Positions 4,211 to 26,996 of a stretch of DNA of 32,910 nt are shown here, piece after piece; positions within the stretch are counted from its first letter, which is position 1; the number at the start of each line of letters is the position of its first letter. The stretch is taken from contig CANJRV010000026.1 of NCBI GenBank assembly GCA_947476825.1, positions 1 through 32,910 of the forward strand, given 5' to 3'. The position numbers and the translations under genes were made by a program. This DNA comes from Bacteroidota bacterium (lineage in GTDB: Bacteria > Bacteroidota > Bacteroidia > Chitinophagales > Chitinophagaceae). The notes below the pieces were generated by a model that was not told the DNA's origin, searched no databases, and saw nothing but the letters and a program-made list of their open reading frames with translations.

Positions 4211-4277
4211 AACATTCAAAGCAGATATACCGTATTAAGCTTGTGTACTATGGGCTATTAACATAAAAATTGAAAGT

Positions 4278-4340
4278 AGTAAGTCATAAGTCGTAAGTCA
4301 TAAGTAGTAAGTCGTAAGTAAAAAGTAGAAAGCAAAAAGC
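4278..4340. repeat. Nine degenerate 7-bp tandem units
   Basis: The intergenic DNA reads as nine successive heptamers: AGTAAGT, CATAAGT, CGTAAGT, CATAAGT, AGTAAGT, CGTAAGT, then AAAAAGT, AGAAAGC and AAAAAGC. The phase is exact over 63 bp although the units vary. It lies in the gap between the divergent TolC-type and mtgA genes. Similar 7-bp-phased DNA recurs at 17069-17110 and 17322-17349. Confidence 0.75.
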
Positions 4341-9217: not shown

Positions 9218-11143
9218 ATGAAATTATTAATAATTACATTAGCAATTACACTTTGCATAATAAATACAAAAGCACAAGTAAATTTTTTACCTCCAACCAA
9301 CTTTGGTGCAGGCATAAATCCACGATCAATTGTAAGTGCTGACTTCAATGGAGATGGCAATATGGATATAGCTTCTGCGAATTATGGTTCTAATAATGTA
9401 TCCGTATTATTAGGAAATGGGTTAGGTGGTTTAGGAACTGCGTCAAATTTTGCTGTTGGGACAGCTCCTCAATCGATTACTAGCGCAGATTTTAATGGCG
9501 ATGGTAAAATGGATTTAGCGATTACAAATGGTTCAGGTAATGTATCCATATTAATTGGTAATGGATTAGGGGGTTTTTCTACCCAAACGAATTTCATTGT
9601 TGGGACATCACCGTTCTCAATCATAAGTGCTGATTTCAATGGAGATGGCAAATTGGATTTAGCAACTGCAAATTTAAATTCATTTAATATTTCAATCTTA
9701 TTAGGAAATGGATTGGGTGGTTTTGGAACAGCCACAAATTTTTCTGTAGGAGGAACATGGACAAACCCTCAATCAATCATAAGTGCAGATTTTAATGGAG
9801 ATGGCAAACTTGATATAGTCACCGCAAATTACATTGGGGATAATGTATCCGTTTTATTAGGTAATGGATTGGGTAGTTTTTCAGCACCAACATTTTTTAC
9901 AGTAGGAACAGGACCAGTTTTTCTTATTACTACTGATTTTAATGGAGATGGCAATCTGGATTTGGCGGTAGATAATTATATCTCAAACAACCTATCCATT
10001 TTGTTGGGTAATGGATTAGGAAGTTTTTCAACTCCAACAACCCTTGCATCTGGGTTATTTCCATGGTCAATTACCACTGGAGACTTTAATGGTGATGGCA
10101 AGAAAGACCTAGTTTCTGCCAATTTGAATAATAACAATAATGTGTCTCTTTATATTGGAGATGGGTTAGGCAATTTTTCATTGCCAGTAAATTTTGTTGC
10201 AGGTTCTCAACCATTTCAAGTTATTAGTACAGATTTTAACGGAGATGGCAAAATGGATTTGGCGACTGCGAATAATGATTCTAATAATGTAAGTGTGTTA
10301 TTAAATATCTCGCCGAGTTGTGCTGATTCTTCACAACTTTTGGCGAGTTTATGCCAAGGACAAGTATATAATTTTTTCGGCACTAACTATTCAAATACTG
10401 GGACATATACTCACATTTTTATAAATGGAAACGTAAATGGATGTGATAGTACAGTGGTACTGAACCTTACTGTTAATACACTTCCATCTGTTAGCGGTTA
10501 TGCATCAGATAGTATTTTATGTTCTGGTGATACGACTTCATTGTTCGGTACAGGCGCATTAAATTATTCGTGGACTGGCGGTGTATTCAATGGGGTTTCA
10601 TTCATTCCACCAGCAACAAATATTTATACTGTAACTGGAACAGATGCAAATAATTGTAGTAATACATCGAGTATCTCTATTACAGTAAATCTTCTTCCAA
10701 TTCCTATAATTACCCAAGCAGGATTGTTACTTTCCACAACTACATTTGTAACTTATCAATGGAATTTGAATGGAAACCCTATCGCAGGTGGAACAAATCA
10801 AAATTATACTGTAACTCAAAATGGTTCTTATTCTGTCACCGTCGAAAATACAAATGGATGTAGAAATACTTCGACAGGAATAATTGTAAACAACGTTAGT
10901 GTCAACAATCTACTTTCTTCCAATACAGTGAATTTGTACCCTAATCCAACAAATGATTTCATTTACATTAAAGGAATAAAACCTCATTGTATAAAAGTTG
11001 CCTCTATTCAAGGCTCCATTATTCAAACTTACTTTGAAACTGATAAAATTGATTTGTCGAACATGTCTGAAGGATTGTATTTTATTCAGTTGTTTGACAA
11101 TGAGAATAACCTTTTTAATATTCAAAAAGTTACTAAATTATAA
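9218..11143 (+). CDS. Secreted FG-GAP/VCBS repeat protein with T9SS type A sorting domain
   Basis: A 641-residue protein with a signal peptide (MKLLIITLAITLCIINTKAQ). Seven repeats spaced 48-52 residues apart each contain a DFNGDG calcium-binding loop followed by a hydrophobic strand (for example SVLLGNGLGG). This fits a seven-bladed beta-propeller at about residues 25-365. Next come two Ig/PKD-like beta domains with Cys pairs (CADSSQLLASLCQ and SDSILCSGDTTSL). The last 75 residues (VNLYPNPTNDFIYIKGI through MSEGLYFIQLF) are a type A C-terminal sorting domain, which sends cargo through the type IX system to the cell surface. The ligand or role is unknown. The propeller repeats are also alike at DNA level, suggesting fairly recent internal duplication. 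Confidence 0.9.
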   Translation: MKLLIITLAITLCIINTKAQVNFLPPTNFGAGINPRSIVSADFNGDGNMDIASANYGSNNVSVLLGNGLGGLGTASNFAVGTAPQSITSADFNGDGKMDLAITNGSGNVSILIGNGLGGFSTQTNFIVGTSPFSIISADFNGDGKLDLATANLNSFNISILLGNGLGGFGTATNFSVGGTWTNPQSIISADFNGDGKLDIVTANYIGDNVSVLLGNGLGSFSAPTFFTVGTGPVFLITTDFNGDGNLDLAVDNYISNNLSILLGNGLGSFSTPTTLASGLFPWSITTGDFNGDGKKDLVSANLNNNNNVSLYIGDGLGNFSLPVNFVAGSQPFQVISTDFNGDGKMDLATANNDSNNVSVLLNISPSCADSSQLLASLCQGQVYNFFGTNYSNTGTYTHIFINGNVNGCDSTVVLNLTVNTLPSVSGYASDSILCSGDTTSLFGTGALNYSWTGGVFNGVSFIPPATNIYTVTGTDANNCSNTSSISITVNLLPIPIITQAGLLLSTTTFVTYQWNLNGNPIAGGTNQNYTVTQNGSYSVTVENTNGCRNTSTGIIVNNVSVNNLLSSNTVNLYPNPTNDFIYIKGIKPHCIKVASIQGSIIQTYFETDKIDLSNMSEGLYFIQLFDNENNLFNIQKVTKL

Positions 11144-11358: not shown

Positions 11359-14127
11359 TCACAAATACCTCCCTGTATAGCCTTTCTTATCTTTTTTTAA
11401 TTCCTCTACAGATCCTTCAAAAAGCAATTCACCACCGCCTACACCGCCTTCTGGGCCAAGATCTATTACCCAATCGGCATTGCGTATCACATCTGGGTTA
11501 TGTTCGATGACAACTATCGAATGCCCATTTTCTATCAAGGCTTCGAAGGAGGTCAATAGTTTTTGTATATCATGAAAATGCAAGCCCGTTGTGGGTTCAT
11601 CAAAAATAAATAAGATGCGTTTATTCAAAAAACTTCGATCTAAAAAAGAAGCCAATTTCACGCGTTGTGCTTCTCCTCCACTCAGCGTATCTGATGATTG
11701 TCCAAGCTTGATATATCCTAATCCAACATCCGCAAGCAACTTAATTTTATCTGCTATTTTTTTGTCATTGATAAAAAATTCATGAGCTTCATCTACACTC
11801 ATATCCAACACATCCGTAATGCTTTTATTTTTGTACTGCACTTCTAAAACCTCCGCTTTGAAACGCTTGCCTTTACAACTTTCGCAAGTCAAATGTACAT
11901 CAGCCAGAAACTGCATTTCTACAGTCGTTTCACCTTCTCCTTTACAAGTATCACATCGACCACCATCAACATTGAATGAAAAAAATCCTGCGGTATATCC
12001 TCTTATTTTTGACAGCTTGATATTGGCATACAAAGCACGAATATCATCGTAGGCTTTGATATAGGTAATCGGGTTGGAGCGCGATGATTTTCCAATTGGA
12101 TTTTGATCTACCATTTCCACACTTTGTATGGCTTGCAAATCTCCTTTCAATTCGCCAAACTCTCCCGGCTTCATACCAAAATCACCTTTCGCATTGCTTA
12201 CTGCTGGATATAAAATATGTTTGATTAAACTTGTTTTTCCAGAACCACTCACTCCCGTTACAACACATAACATATTCAATGGAATGGTGACGGTAATATT
12301 TTTTAAATTATGCAGTCTGCAATCCGTCAAAATAATTTTATTGACTACTTTACGAATCGGTTTTTGAACAGACACTTGCATAGTGCCATTCAAGTATTGT
12401 GCAGTTAAACTTTTTTTGTTTTTTAAAATTTCCTGATAGGTTCCAACAGCAACAATTTCACCACCCAAATGAGATGCAAAAGGACCAACATCAATTATGT
12501 AATCACAAGCTCGCATGATTTGGTCATCATGTTCAACAACCAAAACGGTATTGCCCAAATCGCGTAAACGTTTTAATACTTTAATTAATCTGTCGGTATC
12601 TCTTGCGTGCAAACCAATACTAGGTTCATCCAAAATATATAAACTGTCGGATAAATTACTACCAATAACACGCGTCAATTGTATGCGTTGACTTTCGCCA
12701 CCACTCAAGGTATTGGCAGTTCGGTTCAGGGTTAAATAATGCAAACCCACATCCAATAAGGTTTGCAACCTTGTTTCTAATTCAATGACAATTCGTTTGG
12801 CAATGGTTTGATCATGTGTATTGAGTTTCAAATTTTGCAACCAAGTATACAAATCATCCACAGGCATATCGAGCAAAGTGCCAATATGTGTATCTTGAAT
12901 TTTTACGTATAAGGCATCTTTTCGTATGCGCGCGCCTTGACAACTCGGACAAATTGTTTTTCCTCTATACCTTGCTTGCAACACACGATATTGAATCTTG
13001 TACATATTTTCTGCTACCATATCAAAGAAGCCAAGTATGCCATGATGACTATGCCACAGCAAATGATTTTCCTCTTTGCTCAAGTCTTTAATAGGTCGAT
13101 GTATCGGGAAATTATTTTTAGTTTCCGAAATAAATTCTCTTTTCCACTCACTCATTTTATCGCCATTCCAACATGCCACTGCGCCTTCATGGACCGACAA
13201 ATTTTTGTTCGGAATAACGAGGCTTGGATCTATACCCAAAACCATTCCAAATCCTTCACATTCAGGACAAGCACCATAAGGATTATTGCTCGAAAAAAAA
13301 TTAGCAGTGGGTTCTTCAAAGCGCATGCCATCCAATTCAAAACGATTACAAAAATGTTGTATTTTTTTTCCATCTACTTCAATAAATACATCTCCATTGG
13401 TTTCGTCAAAAGCCGTTTGTATACTATCTGACACGCGATGCAATTCGTCTTGTTCAAACGCTTTCGCCACCAATCGGTCTATTAAAATAAATGTATTCTT
13501 AAAATCAATTTCTATATTTTCACTAGCTAAAATATCTTCAATTTGTAAATATTCTTTTTGTTGAATTTGATACAAACGGGTGAATCCTTTTTGCAATAAA
13601 TCATTCAAATAATAGGCTACATTTTTTTCTGCCGACACTTGCATCGGAATGATAATAATGAGCCTTGTACCCGCTTTTAATTTTTGGATATAATTGGTCA
13701 CATCACTCACTTCTTGTTTGCTCACTTCATTGCCCGAGATAGGTGAAAAAGTGCGTCCTACTTTGGCATAAAACAAACGCAAGTAATCCAATAATTCTGT
13801 CATAGAACCAACTGTAGAACGAGGTGTGCGAGCCGTTACTTTTTGTTCGATGGCAATAGCTGGGCAAAGTCCTTCAATAAAATCTACATCCGGTTTTTGC
13901 ATACTTTTCATAAACTGTCTAGCATACGAACTGAGACTTTCCACATAACGACGTTGACCTTCCGCAAACAGAGTATCCATCGTCAGAGAAGACTTACCAG
14001 AGCCGCTCACACCAGTCACTACAATGAATTTGTTGTGCGGAATAGTGACGTTTACATTCTTCAAATTATGTACACGAGCGCCTTTTATTTTTATATCTAA
14101 ATCTGTTTGAATATTCTGTTTCGCCAT
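11359..14127 (-). CDS. uvrA: Excinuclease ABC subunit A
   Basis: UvrA is the damage-sensing ATPase of nucleotide excision repair and loads UvrB on damaged DNA. The 922-residue protein has both ABC modules. The first has GVSGSGKSSL (Walker A) near residue 40, and later LSGGESQRIQL with YILDEPSIGL. The second has GVSGSGKTSL, LSGGEAQRVKL and FIFDEPTTGL. Zinc-binding CxxC pairs are present as ACPECEGFG, TICPSCQGAR and RCDTCKGEG/CESCKGKRF. The early segment KPDVDFIEGLCPAIAIEQK is as in Bacteroidota UvrA. The ATG at 14127 (MAKQNIQTD) is preferred to an in-frame TTG 21 bp upstream. No damage-response operator is recognisable, and the length is close to the usual 940. Confidence 0.96.
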   Translation of the reverse strand: MAKQNIQTDLDIKIKGARVHNLKNVNVTIPHNKFIVVTGVSGSGKSSLTMDTLFAEGQRRYVESLSSYARQFMKSMQKPDVDFIEGLCPAIAIEQKVTARTPRSTVGSMTELLDYLRLFYAKVGRTFSPISGNEVSKQEVSDVTNYIQKLKAGTRLIIIIPMQVSAEKNVAYYLNDLLQKGFTRLYQIQQKEYLQIEDILASENIEIDFKNTFILIDRLVAKAFEQDELHRVSDSIQTAFDETNGDVFIEVDGKKIQHFCNRFELDGMRFEEPTANFFSSNNPYGACPECEGFGMVLGIDPSLVIPNKNLSVHEGAVACWNGDKMSEWKREFISETKNNFPIHRPIKDLSKEENHLLWHSHHGILGFFDMVAENMYKIQYRVLQARYRGKTICPSCQGARIRKDALYVKIQDTHIGTLLDMPVDDLYTWLQNLKLNTHDQTIAKRIVIELETRLQTLLDVGLHYLTLNRTANTLSGGESQRIQLTRVIGSNLSDSLYILDEPSIGLHARDTDRLIKVLKRLRDLGNTVLVVEHDDQIMRACDYIIDVGPFASHLGGEIVAVGTYQEILKNKKSLTAQYLNGTMQVSVQKPIRKVVNKIILTDCRLHNLKNITVTIPLNMLCVVTGVSGSGKTSLIKHILYPAVSNAKGDFGMKPGEFGELKGDLQAIQSVEMVDQNPIGKSSRSNPITYIKAYDDIRALYANIKLSKIRGYTAGFFSFNVDGGRCDTCKGEGETTVEMQFLADVHLTCESCKGKRFKAEVLEVQYKNKSITDVLDMSVDEAHEFFINDKKIADKIKLLADVGLGYIKLGQSSDTLSGGEAQRVKLASFLDRSFLNKRILFIFDEPTTGLHFHDIQKLLTSFEALIENGHSIVVIEHNPDVIRNADWVIDLGPEGGVGGGELLFEGSVEELKKDKKGYTGRYL

Positions 14128-14221
14128 TGAATGCGCAAGATAAATCAAAACTTTTTACGCCCTTTAGGTTTTTAAAACCCTTAGTATCAGTTCATCGAGG
14201 CATGTAAAATAAAAAATTAAT

Positions 14222-14328
14222 GTTCTACGAAACGAGAGCACTTCGTAGAACGTCGAAAATTATTATTTGAAAACCTGTTCTACGAAACGTCTTTCGTTTC
14301 GTAGTTTCATTCTGTTGCATTCAGCAAC
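14222..14328. repeat. Cluster of three perfect hairpins (REP-like)
   Basis: Hairpin 1 is GTTCTACGAA/TTCGTAGAAC (14222-14231 with 14242-14251). Hairpin 2 is CTACGAAACG/CGTTTCGTAG (14280-14289 with 14295-14304) around a 5-nt loop. Hairpin 3 is GTTGC/GCAAC (14314-14318 with 14324-14328). The first two share the word GTTCTACGAAACG, so one looks like a rearranged copy of the other. They lie between the vapC stop and the uvrA start on the minus strand and could end the toxin transcript or protect mRNA ends. The rest of the 14128-14438 gap shows no gene. Confidence 0.65.
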
Positions 14329-14438
14329 CTTCACGAAAAAATCATTATTCCTCTATCCATAGGGCTTTTGCGATATTATAAAATTTCTCTTTCGAGCTTT
14401 TACTGATTAGATTGACCAAGAAAACATGTTTGATTTGT

Positions 14439-14810
14439 TTAGTCGATAATTATAACGTCTACATCAGAGAGAGATTTGAAGTCCTTATCCATCGTCAATA
14501 ACGGGATTGAATAGTACTTAGCAGTACCTGCTATTATAGCATCTGGGGTTTTCTTAATTATTTTTTTTCTTCTGTATTTGGAGGCTTCCAATTTTATCTC
14601 CGGTAACAAAACATCGAATTTAATACACAACTTTAGTAGTTCCTCGATGATTGTGACATCAGATTTGGAAAGTGCAGGGTTACTTAATAACTCTATTTCA
14701 GTAATACCTGAAATACAAATCTCTATATCTGTTATGTACGATGCTATTCTAGAATTACCCTCTAATAATTCCACTAGTATATTCGTATCAACCAATATCT
14801 TACCATTCAT
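14439..14810 (-). CDS. vapC: VapC-type PIN-domain ribonuclease toxin
   Basis: A 123-residue PIN nuclease with the four acidic positions expected: D8 in ILVDTNILVELL, E38 in ISGITEIELL, D90 in KKTPDAIIAGTA, and D108/D110 in TMDKDFKSL. VapC toxins cleave tRNA or rRNA and stop translation until neutralised by the partner antitoxin. Length and motif spacing are complete, unlike the broken PIN gene at 8784. A small ORF ending 11 bp inside its 5' end encodes the likely antitoxin, consistent with translational coupling. The toxin call is firm; the RNA target is unknown. Confidence 0.9.
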   Translation of the reverse strand: MNGKILVDTNILVELLEGNSRIASYITDIEICISGITEIELLSNPALSKSDVTIIEELLKLCIKFDVLLPEIKLEASKYRRKKIIKKTPDAIIAGTAKYYSIPLLTMDKDFKSLSDVDVIIID

Positions 14811-14961
14811 TTCTTATATTCTTTTGGTAATCTAAACCATTACCATATTTTTTAACCTTACCTACGAACTCTTCAATAGTTATTTTTTTCTTCGCCTGAA
14901 GATCCGCGATTTTCTGCTTTGCTTTTTTGGAAGTGGTCTTCTTATCTAAGATTAGTATCAC
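14800..14961 (-). CDS. Short antitoxin partner of the VapC toxin (GTG start)
   Basis: The frame ends with TAA at 14802-14800, 11 bp inside the vapC gene. Reading from the GTG at 14961 gives 53 residues, opening VILILDKKTTSKKAKQKI and closing YGNGLDYQKNIRNEW. It is lysine-rich, with a helix-forming middle (KIADLQAKKKITIEEFVGK) and a C-terminal tail ending in Trp, as in small antitoxins that wrap their toxin. No ATG occurs upstream in frame before the stop near 15100, so GTG is the only plausible start short of rarer codons. A purine-rich GGGAAAAATTTAAA precedes it. The antitoxin role is inferred from size and overlap with vapC; I do not recognise the fold. Confidence 0.65.
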   Translation of the reverse strand: MILILDKKTTSKKAKQKIADLQAKKKITIEEFVGKVKKYGNGLDYQKNIRNEW

Positions 14962-15012
14962 TTTAAATTTTTCCCAAATGTAACTAATCTCTGTTAATGA
15001 TTTTCCGAAATC

Positions 15013-15092
15013 GATTTGAAAATTTGAAGATGTAAGATTTCGCCTTTGGAATTTGGAATTTTCACCTTTGGAATTTTCACCTTTGGAATTTT
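15013..15092. repeat. AT-rich repeat element, copy A
   Basis: It begins GATTTGAAAATTTGAAGATG and continues into tandem CCTTTGGAATTT words; GGAATTTTCACCTTT occurs twice in a row. A similar stretch with the same order of words is at 17349-17436. It lies upstream of the EnvC-like gene and overlaps the upstream open frame of the antitoxin. I see no gene in it. Confidence 0.55.
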
Positions 15093-15133
15093 TAGATTCT
15101 CAAACTTTTTACACCTACTTTCATTTAAAAAAT

Positions 15134-15141
15134 TATTTTTG
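15134..15141 (+). promoter_or_regulatory. Putative -7 promoter box for the EnvC-like gene
   Basis: TATTTTTG is a perfect TAnnTTTG match ending 16 bp before the TTG start at 15158. A transcript would start only some 10 nt before that codon. This fits the TTG start and argues against the longer frame opening at 15053. Confidence 0.5.
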
Positions 15142-15157
15142 TAGCCATTCCAAACAT

Positions 15158-17071
15158 TTGACTAAAAAATTTCTATACCTTATTGTATTCGCATTCTTAT
15201 GGAGTGTTGGTTTGTTTGCACAAAAAACAAAAAACCAATCTCGCGAGCAGCTTGAAAATCAACGGGTTTCTATATTGGAAGAGATAAAAAGAACACAAGA
15301 TGAATTGGTTCTTTTGCGACAAGATAAAAAAGCGTCTTTGAGTCAGTTGCAAGCTTTACAAACCAAGCTAGAAGCACGTCAATCGCTTATTTCCAATATC
15401 AATAATGAAATTGCTTATATAGAAGATAATATCAAATTGGCGAATAAAGATGTTGTGGTGATGAAAACCCAATTGGATACTTTGCGTAAACAATATGCCG
15501 AAATGATGAGGTATACCTATAAAAATCGTACCTCTTCGGATATGATTGTCTTCTTGTTTTCGGCTTCTTCCTTCAATGACGCTATTCGACGATTGCAATA
15601 TGTAAAGCAATACAGAAGCTATAGAGCAGATCAAGCTGTAAAAATCACATCAGCAAGTAAACAGCTTTCAAATAAAATTACGGTGTTGAATTTGGAGAAG
15701 CAAAAGAAGGATTTTGTATTGCAAGCCCAAGAACAACAAAATAAAATTTTAGAAGCAGAGACAGCCGAGAAAGATAAAGTAGTAACAGAGCTTAAAGGCA
15801 AGGAAAAAGACTTATTGGATGGTTTGGCTAAAAAGAAAAGAGCAGCAGAAGAATTAAACAGAGTTATTGCCAATGCGATTAAACAAGAAATTGAATTGGC
15901 GCGCAAACGGGTTTTGGAAGAAAGAATGCGTCTTGAAAAATTACGCAAACAACAAGAGGAAACGGCTCGAAAAAATGAAGCGCTTCGTAAAGCGCAAGAA
16001 CAGGCACTTGCAGAGAAACAACGCAAACAAGAATTGCAAAATCGATTGGACTTAGCCAAAAAACAACAAGAAGAAAAAGAGCGTCAAGCCTTATTGGATA
16101 AACAAAAACGAGAAGAGTCGGAACGTAAATTGGCTGCTGAACGAAAACAAAGAGAGGATAAAGAGAAGGCCTTGGCGATGGAAAAACAACAACGTATTGA
16201 GGCGGAACAAAAGGCTTCGCAAATGGCGGCAGCACAAAGAAAAGAACAAGAACGTAAGCTTGCCATAGAGAAAGAGAAACAAGACACTCGCCAAAAATTA
16301 TTAGCAGATGAGAAAAAGCGACAAGAACAACAACAGCAGCAATTGTTGGCGCAGAAGCAACAGCAAGAAGAAGATCAACGTCGTTTAGATAATGAGAAAA
16401 GAAAACAAGAACGTGAATTAGCAAGAGCAAATTCTGATAGACCAATCGGAAACCCGCGCTACATCAAAGCTTTAGCAGAAAAACCAAAATACGATAATGT
16501 CACATTGAATACAGGAAGTTCTGATAATTATGTTCCGGCTAATAAACCTGTAGCCGCAACTACTGAAGTTTCTGTTCCAAAAAGTAAAGTCAAAACTTTT
16601 GAAAGTGATGACTATAAATTTTCGCTTACACCCGAGGAGAGACAAATTACAAATGGCTTAGAAGCCAATAAAGGCAGACTTCCTTGGCCAGTAGACAAAG
16701 GATATGTCATTGAAAAATTTGGAAAAAATAAGCATCCGCTTTTCAATATTGTTACTGAAAATTATGGTGTAGATATTAAAACAAATCGTGCAGCAGCCGC
16801 TAGATCTATCTTCGCGGGCGAAGTGAATTCCGTAACGTATATTCCAGGCATGGGACAAACTGTTATTATCAATCATGGTTCATTCTTTACAGTTTATTCT
16901 AAGTTGAGTAAAGTGAATGTCGCCAAAGGTTCGCATGTATCAATGAAACAAACCATTGGTACCGTAATGACGGATGATGATGGCAACACGCAAGTCCATT
17001 TTGAAATTTGGAAAGTAGGTGCAAATGGATCTCCATTCAGAATGAATCCGGAACAGTGGATTGCGCAGTAG
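15158..17071 (+). CDS. EnvC-like murein hydrolase activator (coiled coil + degenerate M23/LytM)
   Basis: From the TTG start the 637-residue protein has a signal peptide (LTKKFLYLIVFAFLWSVGLFAQ). An N-terminal coiled coil at about residues 25-240 contains an EIAYIEDNIKLANKDV-type segment. Next is a very long Glu/Gln/Lys/Arg-rich helix at about 240-435. A LytM/M23 domain (GRLPWPVDKGYVIEKFGKNK to NPEQWIAQ) closes it. This is the EnvC layout; EnvC-type proteins switch on cell-wall amidases at division. The metal-binding HxxxD of active M23 peptidases is replaced by NYGVD, and only one His is left in the late motif (QVHFEIW). It therefore probably activates other hydrolases rather than cutting peptidoglycan. 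No in-frame ATG exists before the signal peptide, so TTG is needed. Confidence 0.85.
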   Translation: MTKKFLYLIVFAFLWSVGLFAQKTKNQSREQLENQRVSILEEIKRTQDELVLLRQDKKASLSQLQALQTKLEARQSLISNINNEIAYIEDNIKLANKDVVVMKTQLDTLRKQYAEMMRYTYKNRTSSDMIVFLFSASSFNDAIRRLQYVKQYRSYRADQAVKITSASKQLSNKITVLNLEKQKKDFVLQAQEQQNKILEAETAEKDKVVTELKGKEKDLLDGLAKKKRAAEELNRVIANAIKQEIELARKRVLEERMRLEKLRKQQEETARKNEALRKAQEQALAEKQRKQELQNRLDLAKKQQEEKERQALLDKQKREESERKLAAERKQREDKEKALAMEKQQRIEAEQKASQMAAAQRKEQERKLAIEKEKQDTRQKLLADEKKRQEQQQQQLLAQKQQQEEDQRRLDNEKRKQERELARANSDRPIGNPRYIKALAEKPKYDNVTLNTGSSDNYVPANKPVAATTEVSVPKSKVKTFESDDYKFSLTPEERQITNGLEANKGRLPWPVDKGYVIEKFGKNKHPLFNIVTENYGVDIKTNRAAAARSIFAGEVNSVTYIPGMGQTVIINHGSFFTVYSKLSKVNVAKGSHVSMKQTIGTVMTDDDGNTQVHFEIWKVGANGSPFRMNPEQWIAQ

Positions 17072-17110: not shown

Positions 17111-17138
17111 TGCTACAATCAATATGCAAACACAATCC

Positions 17139-17321
17139 CCAAGCCCTGAAAGGGCGACATATGAATAGCAAGGGGTGCAACCCCTTGAAAAAGAATAAAA
17201 ACCCAAGCCCAGAAAGGGCGATATATAAATAGCAAGGGGTGCAACCCCTTGAAAAAGAATAAAAACCCAAGCCCTGAAAGGGCTAAATATGAATAGCAAG
17301 GGGTGCAACCCCTTGAAAAAG
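17139..17321. repeat. Three tandem 64-bp double-hairpin units (REP/BIME-like)
   Basis: Units start at 17139, 17203 and 17267, exactly 64 bp apart. Each has a first palindrome, GCCCTGAAAGGGC (GCCCAGAAAGGGC in unit 2), then a second, CAAGGGGT-GCA-ACCCCTTG, an 8-bp stem with 3-nt loop (17169-17187 in unit 1). An A-rich linker follows. The second palindrome is unchanged in all three while bases between the hairpins vary. Similar GCCC..GGGC plus GGGGTGCAACCCC units are familiar from Bacteroidota intergenic DNA. No protein frame across it is credible. Confidence 0.85.
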
Positions 17322-21015: not shown

Positions 21016-21447
21016 ATGAAAACTAAAAAACGAATAGCTAAAATTTCTTTTGGTATTGCAGGTTCTGTTATCCTATGCTTGATTCTTTTTTCTTTCAATA
21101 TGAATCAAGAAAAAAATCTAATTGGAAAGTGGAAACAAGTATCAAGAACCTTTTCTTCATCTACCTATCAAGATACAACGATGCCGTTGATTAATGTATA
21201 TAAATTTTTCGAGAACAATCAATTCTTGTTAACACAAACCGTAATAAAGGATATAGGTATGGGTAACAAGGGCACTCTTACACAAGCGGAAGGTGATTAT
21301 AAGATAGAGAAAAATATCATCACATTACATGGAGATAAAATGGATGATGTATCTTTTACATTGACTTTCTTATCTGATTCTATAATGCAATTAAGTTCAG
21401 ATAATAATATAAATGGATGGAAGGAAGTTTATCATAAGATTTATTAA
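21016..21447 (+). CDS. Small exported lipocalin-like protein
   Basis: A 143-residue protein with a basic start (MKTKKRIAK), a hydrophobic helix at about 11-28 (signal peptide or anchor, with no clear lipobox), then a short beta-rich domain. The domain opens with NLIGKWKQVSRTF, the G-x-W pattern that begins small lipocalin-like domains of Bacteroidota. It continues with alternating strands (YKFFENNQFLLTQT, GDYKIEKNIITLHGD, VSFTLTFLSDSIMQL) as in an eight-stranded barrel. Such domains bind small hydrophobic ligands, but here the ligand is unknown and the family call is moderate. It has its own promoter-like box and no close partner. Confidence 0.7.
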   Translation: MKTKKRIAKISFGIAGSVILCLILFSFNMNQEKNLIGKWKQVSRTFSSSTYQDTTMPLINVYKFFENNQFLLTQTVIKDIGMGNKGTLTQAEGDYKIEKNIITLHGDKMDDVSFTLTFLSDSIMQLSSDNNINGWKEVYHKIY

Positions 21448-22111: not shown

Positions 22112-22119
22112 TACATTTG
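22112..22119 (+). promoter_or_regulatory. Putative -7 promoter box for the type III PKS locus
   Basis: TACATTTG matches TAnnTTTG and ends 29 bp before the ATG at 22149. The promoter thus appears intact although the first gene behind it is broken. Confidence 0.5.
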
Positions 22120-22148: not shown

Positions 22149-23202
22149 ATGCCTTCATTAGCTGCTATTTCAAAAATTGATTTCCCATTTCGTATTGAGC
22201 AAGAGAAAGTAAAAAAATGTGCACAAGAATTGTTTGAACCTTCTTTTCCGCAGGTCCAAAAAATGATGAGTGTTTTTAACAATACAGAAATTAAAACAAG
22301 AAACTTTTGCAAACCATTGGAGTACTACGCTACTGTCCATAATTTTCAAGATCAGAATGAAGAATATATTCGTATCTCTCTCGATTATTCTGTATTAGCA
22401 ATTGAAGATTGTATTGCCAAAGCCAATATCAAAAAAGAAGATATAAGCGATATTATTTTCGTTTCTACAACAGGACTTGCAACACCAAGTATAGATGCAC
22501 TCATCATCAACAAAATGAAACTGAATGAGAACATTAGTCGTATGTCCATTTTTGGATTGGGTTGCGCTGGTGGCGTTGCAGGTTTTGCCAAAGCCAGCAC
22601 TTTGGCCAAAGCTAATCCAGATGCGATTGTATTGCTTGTGGCAGTAGAATTACCTTTTTACGAAACGATTACAGCAAAAGTAATTTTATTGGTTCGAGTC
22701 TTTTTGCAGACGGCGTTGCAGCATTGATTATTACTGGAGATAATCACACAAACAAAACCAATAACCAAATTTCATTTGTTGCTACACAAAGTAAATTGTA
22801 CTACCATTCATTAGAAGTGATGGGTTGGAAATTTTTAGATACAGGATTTAAGGTTTTATTTTCGCAAGACATTCCAAATATCATTGCAAAAAATATATAC
22901 AAGGACGTTACCTCCTTTTTAGAAAAACACAATTTGAAAATAGAAGATATCAAAAATTTTATCTTTCATCCAGGTGGAAAAAAATATTAACTGCTTATAG
23001 TGAGGCATTAAAAGTAGAAGGGGATTTTCTAAAAAATACAAGAGAGGTGATGAATGATTATGGAAATATGAGTAGCCCAACTGTTTTGTATGTCATGGAA
23101 AGATTCTTCACGCAAGGCTTCGACAACGGATACGGATTAATGGTTTCCATGGGCCCAGGTTTTTCATGTGAGATGGTATTACTTAACATGAAAAATAAAT
23201 AA
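22149..23202 (+). pseudogene. Type III polyketide synthase, broken by two frameshifts
   Basis: Three consecutive frames together give one chalcone-synthase-like protein. Frame 1 (22149 to about 22652) carries the nucleophilic Cys139 in GLGCAGGVAGFAKAS and ends at VEL. The family would next read CSLTF; instead the DNA jumps to FLRNDYSKSNFIGSSLFADG in another frame, as if about 10 bp were lost at 22652-22655. Frame 2 runs to FHPGGKK (catalytic His) at an A7 run (22978-22984), where one base is missing. Frame 3 continues VLTAYSEALKVEG, GNMSSPTVLYVME (catalytic Asn) and stops at 23202. Restoring 11 bp gives about 354 residues, the normal length. All three catalytic residues survive in the DNA. 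The stop adjoins the ATG of the ICMT-type gene. Confidence 0.85.
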
Positions 23203-23694
23203 ATGATTTTCATACTTTTTATTTCATTTATCATTCTACTGCGGATTGCAGAATTATTTCTTGCCAAGAGAAATGAAAAATGGATGTTGCAAAATGGCGC
23301 AGTAGAATATGGGAAAAAACATTACTCGCTTATTGTTGCTTTACATACTTCGTTTTTTATCTCGCTAATTGTTGAATATGCAAATCAACAAACGCCTTCA
23401 TATAGTATATTCATTCTGATTATTTACTTTTTACTTCTTGCATGTAAAGCATGGATTATTGCCTCGCTGGGTAAATTCTGGAACACAAAAATATTTCGCA
23501 TTCCAAATTTTCCTTTAATCAAAACAGGTCCTTACAAATATGTCAAACATCCGAATTATATAGTTGTCGTTGCAGAAATTGCACTTATTCCCCTTGCATT
23601 TCATTTGTATTATACAGCAATAATTTTTTCTCTGCTCAATGCAATCATACTGAGCATCCGAATAAAAGAAGAAAACCGAGCGTTAGAAATTTAA
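23203..23694 (+). CDS. ICMT-family (BpsB/YpbQ-like) membrane methyltransferase
   Basis: A 163-residue protein with about four or five membrane helices and the isoprenylcysteine carboxyl methyltransferase pattern: RIAELFLAKRNEKWML near the N-terminus, GKFWNTKIFRIPNFPLIKTGPYKYVKHPNYIVV in the SAM-binding region, and RIKEENRAL at the end. Its start codon directly follows the stop of the type III PKS (TAA then ATG). The same pair is known from Bacillus (BpsA-BpsB), where the methyltransferase makes methyl ethers of alkylpyrones from the synthase. The gene is intact while the synthase is not. It may be a relic, or modify a product made elsewhere. The family is firm; the substrate is inferred. Confidence 0.87.
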   Translation: MIFILFISFIILLRIAELFLAKRNEKWMLQNGAVEYGKKHYSLIVALHTSFFISLIVEYANQQTPSYSIFILIIYFLLLACKAWIIASLGKFWNTKIFRIPNFPLIKTGPYKYVKHPNYIVVVAEIALIPLAFHLYYTAIIFSLLNAIILSIRIKEENRALEI

Positions 23695-23999
23695 ATAGAG
23701 AATACAAATTAGCCGGAAAAAATCAATAGACAAAGTAAGTTGCTAAGCTGGTGTAGGATTGCATCTTGTGTCTTTCAACTATTCAAACATATTCCCAAAA
23801 AGCTAGCGCAGTTTTGTAAGCTTTGATACTCATCTGTTTGGATATACAAAGAGGAATGATTAAGTTTACATACTATCTTCCTATTTGTATAAAATAAACA
23901 TGTTGACAAGGGTATTTTATAATTAGCATTTTGTATGCAAGTTAAGATTTGGTAGTATTTACTCATTTTGCAATTATTCAAGCCTAGCAATAACATTTT
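23695..23999. other. Gene-free gap of 305 bp
   Basis: No credible gene, tRNA or strong hairpin is seen. A 78-codon minus-strand frame crossing it (23775-24011) has no family pattern and overlaps the start of the next gene head-on. The promoter of that gene must be here, but no exact TAnnTTTG box is visible. Confidence 0.5.
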
Positions 24000-25226
24000 A
24001 TGAAAAAACAAATTTTATTTCTTGCAATATGCATGACAATAAGTTTACATTCTTTCTCGCAAATTCTTTTTGAAAAAGGATATTTTATTAATAATTCAAA
24101 TCAAACCATTGCCTGTTTAATAAAAAACATAGATTGGAAAAACAATCCTACTAAATTTGAATATAGGCTAGCTCAAGATTCTATGATTCAAACTGAAAAT
24201 ATGGAAACGGTAAAGGAATTTGGAATAATTGGTGTGTCTAAATATGTAAGAGCCACTGTACAATTAGATAGATCGAGCAACGAATTGAATAATATGAGTT
24301 GGGAGAAAAATCCAAATTTTTTGGAAGAACAGTTATTTCTTAAAGTACTCGTGGAAGGAAACGCGACATTGTTTCAATACGAAGATGGATACTTGATTAG
24401 GTTTTTCTTTTGCTTAAAAGATTCTGCAATACAACAATTGGTGTATAAGCGATATTTAGTCGATGAGACAATAGCCCAGAATAATTATTTCAAGCAACAA
24501 CTTTTTAATGAATTAAGCTGCCAGGCAATTACATTGAATGATGTTGAAAATATCAGCTATTCTAAATCAGACTTAGTAGAATTCTTCGTAAAATACAATA
24601 AATGCAATAGTTCTAGCTTTGTCAATTATGCATCAAAACCAAAGATAGATTTATTTAATTTATCCTTAAGACCAGGTATAAATTATTGTCAATTAGCCAT
24701 ACAAAATTCCACGGTAAAATCATGGAATATTAATTTCGACAATAAATTTAGTTTCAGATTTGGCGTAGAAGCTGAATTTATTTTACCGTATAATAAAAGC
24801 AAATGGGGCATTTTAATTGAACCTACGTATCAGTATTATTCAGCAGAAAATACAAAACAAGTAAGTACTGTTTCAGGAGGAATTCATGTCTCACAGGTAA
24901 AATATCAGTCTATCGAATTACCAATTGGCATTAGATATTATTTATTTTTCAATCGCGCTTCAAAAATATTTACAGACATTTCATACATATTAGATTTTAA
25001 TGCCAAAAACTCCTTTGTCAAATTAATGGTTCCTGCTGGTTCTACTATGAATTCATTAGAAGTTAGGTCAAGTAAAAACTTTGGTTTAGGAATAGGTTAT
25101 AATTACAAAAATAAATATAGCATAGAAATGCGGTATCAAACCAGTCGTGAAATCTTAGGTGAGTATGTATATTGGGACTCTAGTTATAAAACCAGTTCTA
25201 TTATTTTTGGATATAGTTTGTTTTAA
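24000..25226 (+). CDS. Predicted outer membrane beta-barrel protein of unknown function
   Basis: A 408-residue protein with a signal peptide (MKKQILFLAICMTISLHSFSQ). The first half (about 22-215) is a mixed soluble domain: FEKGYFINNSNQTIACLI, strand-rich segments, then a helical part ending DLVEFFVKYNKCNSS. The second half (about 220-408) is a run of alternating amphipathic strands, such as FSFRFGVEAEFIL, WGILIEPTYQYYS, YQSIELPIGIRYYLF and YSIEMRYQTSREILG. It ends SSIIFGYSLF with a C-terminal Phe, typical of outer membrane barrels. This two-part layout is common in Bacteroidota and usually left hypothetical. I do not assign a role. No operon partner lies close by. Confidence 0.75.
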   Translation: MKKQILFLAICMTISLHSFSQILFEKGYFINNSNQTIACLIKNIDWKNNPTKFEYRLAQDSMIQTENMETVKEFGIIGVSKYVRATVQLDRSSNELNNMSWEKNPNFLEEQLFLKVLVEGNATLFQYEDGYLIRFFFCLKDSAIQQLVYKRYLVDETIAQNNYFKQQLFNELSCQAITLNDVENISYSKSDLVEFFVKYNKCNSSSFVNYASKPKIDLFNLSLRPGINYCQLAIQNSTVKSWNINFDNKFSFRFGVEAEFILPYNKSKWGILIEPTYQYYSAENTKQVSTVSGGIHVSQVKYQSIELPIGIRYYLFFNRASKIFTDISYILDFNAKNSFVKLMVPAGSTMNSLEVRSSKNFGLGIGYNYKNKYSIEMRYQTSREILGEYVYWDSSYKTSSIIFGYSLF

Positions 25227-25373
25227 AGCGTAGCTGTAAATTCGTGATTTGCATCATAAACGAAACGGATTATAGTAATTCACTATCCCACAATATCCAT
25301 TTAAAAATATTCTCCATCCTAACTTTTATCATCCATACATTGCATCTCATCATTTAGCTATTATTTTTACAGC

Positions 25374-26183: not shown

Positions 26184-26996
26184 CTACCTTTGCCATCCTT
26201 CTATTTTATAATTTTTTTCTTTCAATTTTCGTTCTTGTCCTCCGTTGTCAGGGATAAACCAAAGTTCAAATCTTGCTGCATAAGGTTTTCCCCAGTCACC
26301 TTCATAAATTGTAAAAGGTGCGCCATAGCCAGAATTTTCTTTGTCTATTTGAAACATAACTAAACTGTCGGTTGAATTGTAAACAGATATAGTTGAGCTT
26401 TCTTTAAGTCTATCAACAGAAAGTGGATCGTTTTGAGTTACTTCAAATGCTTTTAAATAAATTTGTCCTTTGTCAATACGCTTTGTCCAAAAGGCATATT
26501 GATAAAGTCCTGGTTGCATTGAGTTGAATATGTAAAAGTCAGGGTCTGTTATGGTTGTGGGTAGTGTTTGTTGCAGTGGCTCAGTGATTTTTATGTTAGT
26601 TGGAATTTTCAAATTGTCTGCGTATGTATCAGGCATTGATTGGTCTTTCCAAAACAAAGCGATTGAGTAGAAGAAGAAAGCAACAATTGAAATTCCAATA
26701 ATTGTTGCCGTGAAAATTGCAAAACGCCAACGTTTTTTTACTAATTGATAAATTGTCGAACTAATTAACCCTAAAAAACCAAGAACAAATAATAAGAAAG
26801 AATAGTCTTGAAGCTTAGGTTTATTTGTCAACTCGCACAAGACCATTATTAAAGCTGTTAGCCCGAAAACAAGAACTGGTCGCCACCATTTGTCAAAGCA
26901 ATATGTTAAGATTTTAGTCAAAGTTGTTAGTTCAATTTTTGTCCTCTTACAATAGCCACAACTATTATTACTCCCCTCCCTTCTTCGGAAAATCAT
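26184..26996 (-). CDS. Uncharacterised membrane protein
   Basis: A 270-residue protein with three predicted membrane helices in the first 130 residues (WRPVLVFGLTALIMVLC, FLLFVLGFLGLISSTIY, FAIFTATIIGISIVAFFF). A soluble, beta-rich C-terminal domain of about 140 residues follows, with segments such as TDPDFYIFNSMQPGLYQYAF, MFQIDKENSGYGAP and ARFELWFIPDNGGQERKL. The C-terminal domain probably faces the periplasm. I do not recognise the family. The ATG at 26996 overlaps the end of the phosphatase gene upstream by 29 bp. An in-frame TTG (LTKILTYCF), about 26 codons downstream, would remove the Cys-rich, overlapping N-terminus and may be the true start. The overlap suggests translation from the same mRNA. 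Confidence 0.7.
   Translation of the reverse strand: MIFRRREGSNNSCGYCKRTKIELTTLTKILTYCFDKWWRPVLVFGLTALIMVLCELTNKPKLQDYSFLLFVLGFLGLISSTIYQLVKKRWRFAIFTATIIGISIVAFFFYSIALFWKDQSMPDTYADNLKIPTNIKITEPLQQTLPTTITDPDFYIFNSMQPGLYQYAFWTKRIDKGQIYLKAFEVTQNDPLSVDRLKESSTISVYNSTDSLVMFQIDKENSGYGAPFTIYEGDWGKPYAARFELWFIPDNGGQERKLKEKNYKIEGWQR

Follow-up and report, generated by a model that had tools for sequence, protein, structure and literature searches.

Two frameshifts in a type III polyketide synthase gene beside an open ICMT-family methyltransferase gene: probably a very recent pseudogene in a Chitinophagaceae genome

Results and Discussion

A type III polyketide synthase (PKS) gene located at 22149-23202 on the forward strand of the 32,910-nucleotide stretch of Chitinophagaceae DNA analysed here (the window) was found to be split across three frames by two frameshifts. 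It is quite probably a very recent pseudogene, whose partner, an ICMT-family methyltransferase gene, is as yet undecayed. The locus is most likely an ordinary case of an environmental bacterium losing a dispensable gene, here from a two-gene unit present in some relatives and missing from others.

The Split PKS Gene

The first piece of the gene (22149-22727, forward strand) matched PF00195 (E 1.5e-12) and contains the Cys motif GLGCAGG; its family sequence stops at about 22652, and the remainder of the frame is out of register. The second piece (22652-22987, forward strand, second frame) contains the His motif FHPGGKK (FHPGG). No Pfam family was matched by this piece (22652-22987), and its match to the NCBIfam DpgA model (E 3.9e-10) was far under the curated cut-off of that model. 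The third piece (22984-23202, forward strand, third frame) matched PF02797 (E 1.4e-11), contains the Asn motif GNMSS and keeps the original stop. The Cys, His and Asn of GLGCAGG, FHPGG and GNMSS, which we take to be the type III PKS catalytic triad, are present one motif per piece, i.e., one per frame, in agreement with a preliminary description of the locus that had placed the catalytic residues across three frames. The ranges it gave were likewise borne out, as were the A7 run, the loss of about 10 bp and the predicted length of about 354 codons. The PKS of the nearest genome (G001) occupies a single frame of 354 codons, and both PF00195 and PF02797 are present in this intact ortholog.

The two domains, like the Cys, His and Asn motifs, are shared by the intact ortholog and the window pieces and are those of type III PKSs. 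The window gene differs from these enzymes in lying in three frames, from which plain translation cannot give the whole enzyme. As left, its first frame stops after 192 residues, without the His and Asn motifs, so that the pathway would be off in the window genome.

The breaks were called by alignment of the window with two intact relatives, L029 (the locus of G001) and L030; 989 of 1054 aligned bases are identical between L029 and the window. At the first break (22649..22650, forward strand), 10 bp are missing after 22649 relative to both G001 and L030, and conserved residues are taken away with them; in G001, a 3-bp direct repeat is found at the ends of the deletion. At the second break (22978-22984, forward strand), an A-run is A7 in the window and A8 in both relatives, i.e., 1 bp short. 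The losses total 11 bp, and compensating frameshifts were rejected on this sum. Since the longer state is common to L029 and L030 at both breaks, both losses are derived on the window branch, and they are private to the window genome among the genomes compared.

The window genome is likely a metagenome-assembled genome (MAG), with a completeness of 99.87% in 184 contigs. No second type III PKS locus was found in it by a search with the two Pfam models and the G001 protein; the check for a second copy proposed in the preliminary description thus left the window locus as the single one found.

Intact Orthologs and Distribution of the Two-Gene Unit

The G001 PKS protein was searched (E <= 1e-60) against a sample of 394 genomes of the family; weak or fragmentary copies could escape such a search. 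Matches were obtained in 18 genomes: the window's own, the distant G342 (35% identity) and 16 orthologs, namely G001 itself as the source of the query and 15 others at 57-86% identity. A continuous frame of about 350 codons, absent from the window owing to the two frameshifts, is present in 16 of 16 orthologs, none of which contains an internal stop. The preliminary description had set its reading against sister genomes with one uninterrupted frame of about 354 codons; such a frame does exist, and it speaks for an intact gene in those genomes, not in this one.

A scan of named genomes gave 14 loci with a close relative of the window PKS, with record labels that include Chitinophaga pinensis MAG (L029), Mucilaginibacter, Chitinophagaceae, Ignavibacteriota and uncultured Bacteroidetes. 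The nearest of them, L029, is the same contig as G001:C75. The ICMT gene follows the PKS gene in all 14 (in L042 the PKS start lies past the contig end). Among the 16 orthologs, an ICMT match adjoins the PKS in every case, and 15 of these matches span 152 or more of the 163 residues. In a separate set of 18 genomes searched with the ICMT protein, 13 have it and the other five are the genus-mates named below. In the remaining ortholog, G115 (L071, G115:C156, within the first 310 bases), the match comprises the first 60 of 163 residues and then runs into a stop, which lies about 126 bases away from the end of the contig. This truncated ICMT gene beside an intact PKS may mean that here the methyltransferase is the decaying partner, or it may stem from the assembly.

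Five genus-mates (G003, G005, G006, G008 and G009), with MutS identities of 74-83%, gave no match to a PKS or ICMT of the window type. The G001 PKS is 80-86% identical to the PKS of G279, G080 and G391, whereas the window MutS is 66% identical to the MutS of the same three genomes (in G080 over part of the length); for G411, which belongs to the same genus as G279, the PKS is only 65% identical, with MutS at 65%. The high PKS identity relative to MutS, together with the five genus-mates devoid of the unit, fits acquisition of the PKS-ICMT unit in the ancestor that the window genome shares with G001, and the unit was probably gained horizontally at that point, as judged from identities rather than from a tree. 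The genes are closely paired and patchily distributed, and the unit probably moves between genomes of the family.

A different type III PKS paralog, 26-29% identical, is carried by seven genus-mates (G008, G004, G002, G003, G006, G009 and G005, loci L003-L008 and L015, respectively). Because it is a different paralog, it is uninformative for or against loss of the window PKS. By these searches, type III PKSs appear to turn over within the genus, the genus-mates having the other paralog and the window genome no such second locus.

Length differences from G001 were also seen around the unit. At about 21000 of the window, G001 has about 2.6 kb of extra DNA (L029 4088-6684), and it has just about 0.2 kb in place of window 23750-25262, so that the DNA flanking the PKS unit varies between the two genomes.

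The Partner Gene and the Upstream Region

The ICMT-family methyltransferase gene (23203-23694, forward strand) is an open frame of 163 residues matching PF04140 (E 1.2e-24), and its description as intact was confirmed. In the window as in G001, its start codon directly abuts the PKS stop; loss of PKS translation may therefore reduce its own translation. Twelve silent and seven replacement changes were counted in this gene on each of the two branches, window and G001.

Upstream of the PKS gene, a TAnnTTTG sequence, presumably the Bacteroidetes promoter box, is located at 22112..22119 (forward strand), 37 bases before the ATG and at the equal position in G001 and L030. The promoter box, judged to look intact in the preliminary description, is present and conserved in these three loci; it is displaced in L032, where it lies 75 bases before the ATG, and was not found in L033.

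Frameshifts Elsewhere in the Window Genome

Of the 23 window genes listed, 20 aligned with G001 DNA; the others (9218-11143, 24000-25226 and 26184-26996) had no match in the G001 stretches used. Frameshifting indels in the window were present in the PKS gene and in 0 of the 19 other genes, which argues against a generally bad assembly. A lipocalin-like gene (21016-21447; Pfam score just below the cut-off) is open in the window; in the G001 copy, one base at a T-run shifts the frame.

A wider sample, partly overlapping the window-gene set, took in the window with 400 kb of its genome on one side, and 390 kb of G001 together with the window-matching stretches on the other. Of 315 G001 ORFs, 50 were comparable (90% cover), and for four of these the window genome was flagged: the PKS, with its clear double break; an ORF whose upstream extension enters a tandem repeat of the window (4274-4332), the gene proper being gap-free; L116/L101, flagged close to the end of the gene; and L108/L085, in which a single base changes at column 824 of 1014 and a second change lies close to the end. 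The reverse comparison, with 48 of 331 ORFs comparable, returned the same PKS break, the lipocalin-like frameshift and two ORFs with a stop in G001. A/T runs of at least 7 (counted in G001) numbered 93 in 59.8 kb of aligned DNA. Four of them differ by a gap, the window genome being shorter in two (the PKS A-run included) and G001 in the other two. Broken genes are similarly infrequent in both genomes, and there is no pointer to a generally faulty consensus; a high assembly error rate was unsupported by the window-gene, wider-ORF and A/T-run comparisons alike.

Age of the Break

Substitutions were assigned to branches with G001 as partner and L030 as outgroup, assuming no gene exchange between the lineages since their split. 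The PKS gene has 23 silent and 7 replacement substitutions on the window branch and 21 and 6 on the G001 branch (Fisher p = 1.0), while 8 further substitutions were assignable to no branch; the per-site ratios are 0.077 and 0.073, respectively. Full neutrality along the window branch gives P = 5e-11 for at most 7 replacements among 30. Neutrality for 10% of the branch gives a P of about 0.05 (0.02-0.13 by assumed background) and for 15% a P of 0.005-0.03. Downstream of the first break alone, 13 silent and 3 replacement substitutions were counted (neutral P 1.6e-7). As the substitutions on the window branch are still those of a working gene, the break is young, its age not exceeding roughly 10-15% of that of the split from G001.

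Divergence from G001 is low at about 13200-16600 of the window (0-11 mismatches per 200 bases; most flanking bins have 10-18 per 200), with just 3 mismatches in 13600-15000. A PIN-domain gene within this stretch (14439-14810; PF01850) is 100% identical to that of G001, and the small open frame preceding it in the same direction perhaps forms a toxin-antitoxin pair with it. The low divergence points to recent recombination or transfer between the window and G001 lineages at about 13200-16600, and exchange of this kind counts against the dating, which assumes none.

Interpretation of the Breaks

Derived disabling changes and intact relatives, the marks of a recent pseudogene, were both found here. 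Among the explanations offered in the preliminary description, recent gene loss is the best supported: the relatives are intact, the losses are private among the genomes compared, no second copy was found and coding frameshifts are not in excess in the remainder of the sample. Under this reading, the common ancestor of the window genome and G001 would have gained the two-gene unit horizontally, and in the window lineage the PKS would then have been inactivated by the 10-bp deletion, plausibly between the 3-bp direct repeats, and also by a one-base contraction of the A8 run. The ICMT gene would remain open because too little time has elapsed; coupling to PKS translation, if it exists, may lower its own translation. 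In our judgement, two breaks in one gene without relaxed substitution are somewhat above expectation for so short a time, so that a local error or a minority strain keeps some probability.

A local assembly or consensus error, or a strain chimera in the metagenome bin, with an intact gene in the living cells, is a reading that we regard as rather unlikely. It would account for the unrelaxed selection on the PKS, for the open ICMT gene with a substitution pattern alike on both branches, and for the position of one of the two breaks at a homopolymer. On the other hand, a 10-bp loss is atypical of homopolymer error, frameshifts are absent from the window copies of the 19 other alignable genes, and the wider sample flagged 4 of 50 G001 ORFs in the window genome, the PKS among them. 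A standing polymorphism was given very little weight; here some cells without lipid synthesis would keep the ICMT for lipids of their neighbours or for another substrate, a cheater-like state sustained by exchange of the unit between lineages.

Phase variation, in which reversible slippage of the A-run would toggle the PKS on and off in the population, had been offered as an option in the preliminary description, and we find it scarcely credible. An A8 run, long enough to be mutable, is present at the site of the second break in L029, L030, L065 and L066, where it stems from the codon choice for GGKKI in this clade. However, most other orthologs inspected have shorter A-runs, through other codons, so that A8 is not a conserved switch. 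Moreover, the 10-bp loss upstream lies outside any repeat tract, and its length is not divisible by 3, so slippage of the A-run alone cannot restore the frame and turn the gene back on; no reversible tract restoring the frame by itself was found, and the option is left unsupported. Programmed frameshifting or recoding that yields a full-length PKS from the window sequence has a practically negligible probability. The conserved family sequence is indeed still encoded in all three frames, but two separate programmed shifts would be required, conserved residues are gone with the 10-bp loss, and the gene is a plain single frame in 16 of 16 intact relatives, from which a programmed frameshift was rejected.

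Relation to Known Systems

In a PDB sequence search, the best match of the intact G001 PKS was the alpha-pyrone synthesis PKS-like Pks11 (4jao, E 3.1e-61), which we take to be a Mycobacterium tuberculosis protein, and the Cys, His and Asn motifs of the two align. By gene pairing, not by BpsA or BpsB sequence, the unit can be likened to a pair in another phylum; BpsB is an ICMT-family methyltransferase. The products of the bpsA-bpsB operon of Bacillus subtilis include, according to a part of PMC5686519, alkylpyrones, one form of which is methylated at the 4-hydroxyl. In both cases a type III PKS is combined with a second biosynthetic gene, that of the window being the methyltransferase gene (PF04140) directly downstream; the window differs in that its PKS is broken. 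By this analogy, the intact PKS would use malonyl units to lengthen a fatty acyl starter into an alkylpyrone or alkylresorcinol, which the ICMT-type enzyme would then methylate. The protein families suggest that the intact unit gives an O-methylated alkyl-pyrone or -resorcinol lipid.

Private frameshifts, intact relatives and a partner that is still open are shared with ordinary recent pseudogenes of accessory biosynthetic genes, from which nothing fundamental separates the window gene, the youth of the break alone deserving note. Among the titles listed by literature searches, none was evidently on this PKS-ICMT pair in Bacteroidetes; such papers may exist. Knowledge of type III PKSs is unchanged by this locus. 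As a probable pseudogene it would be a clean example, roughly dated, of very recent damage to a lipid-polyketide gene whose partner is still open, and it adds a PKS-ICMT unit that is closely paired, patchy and probably mobile within the family.

Other Features of the Window

A stretch at 18-165 of the window is a dispersed repeat. Of 190 candidate copies in the window genome 40 were scored, which gives at least 40 matches, the stretch at 18-165 among them; G001 has dozens. Within this stretch, at 42-118 on the reverse strand, lies a Flavo-1 RNA (RF01705, 50.9 bits), a known RNA family. Upstream of a TerC-family gene, a 64-bp tandem repeat is present in 2.9 copies at 17138-17321.
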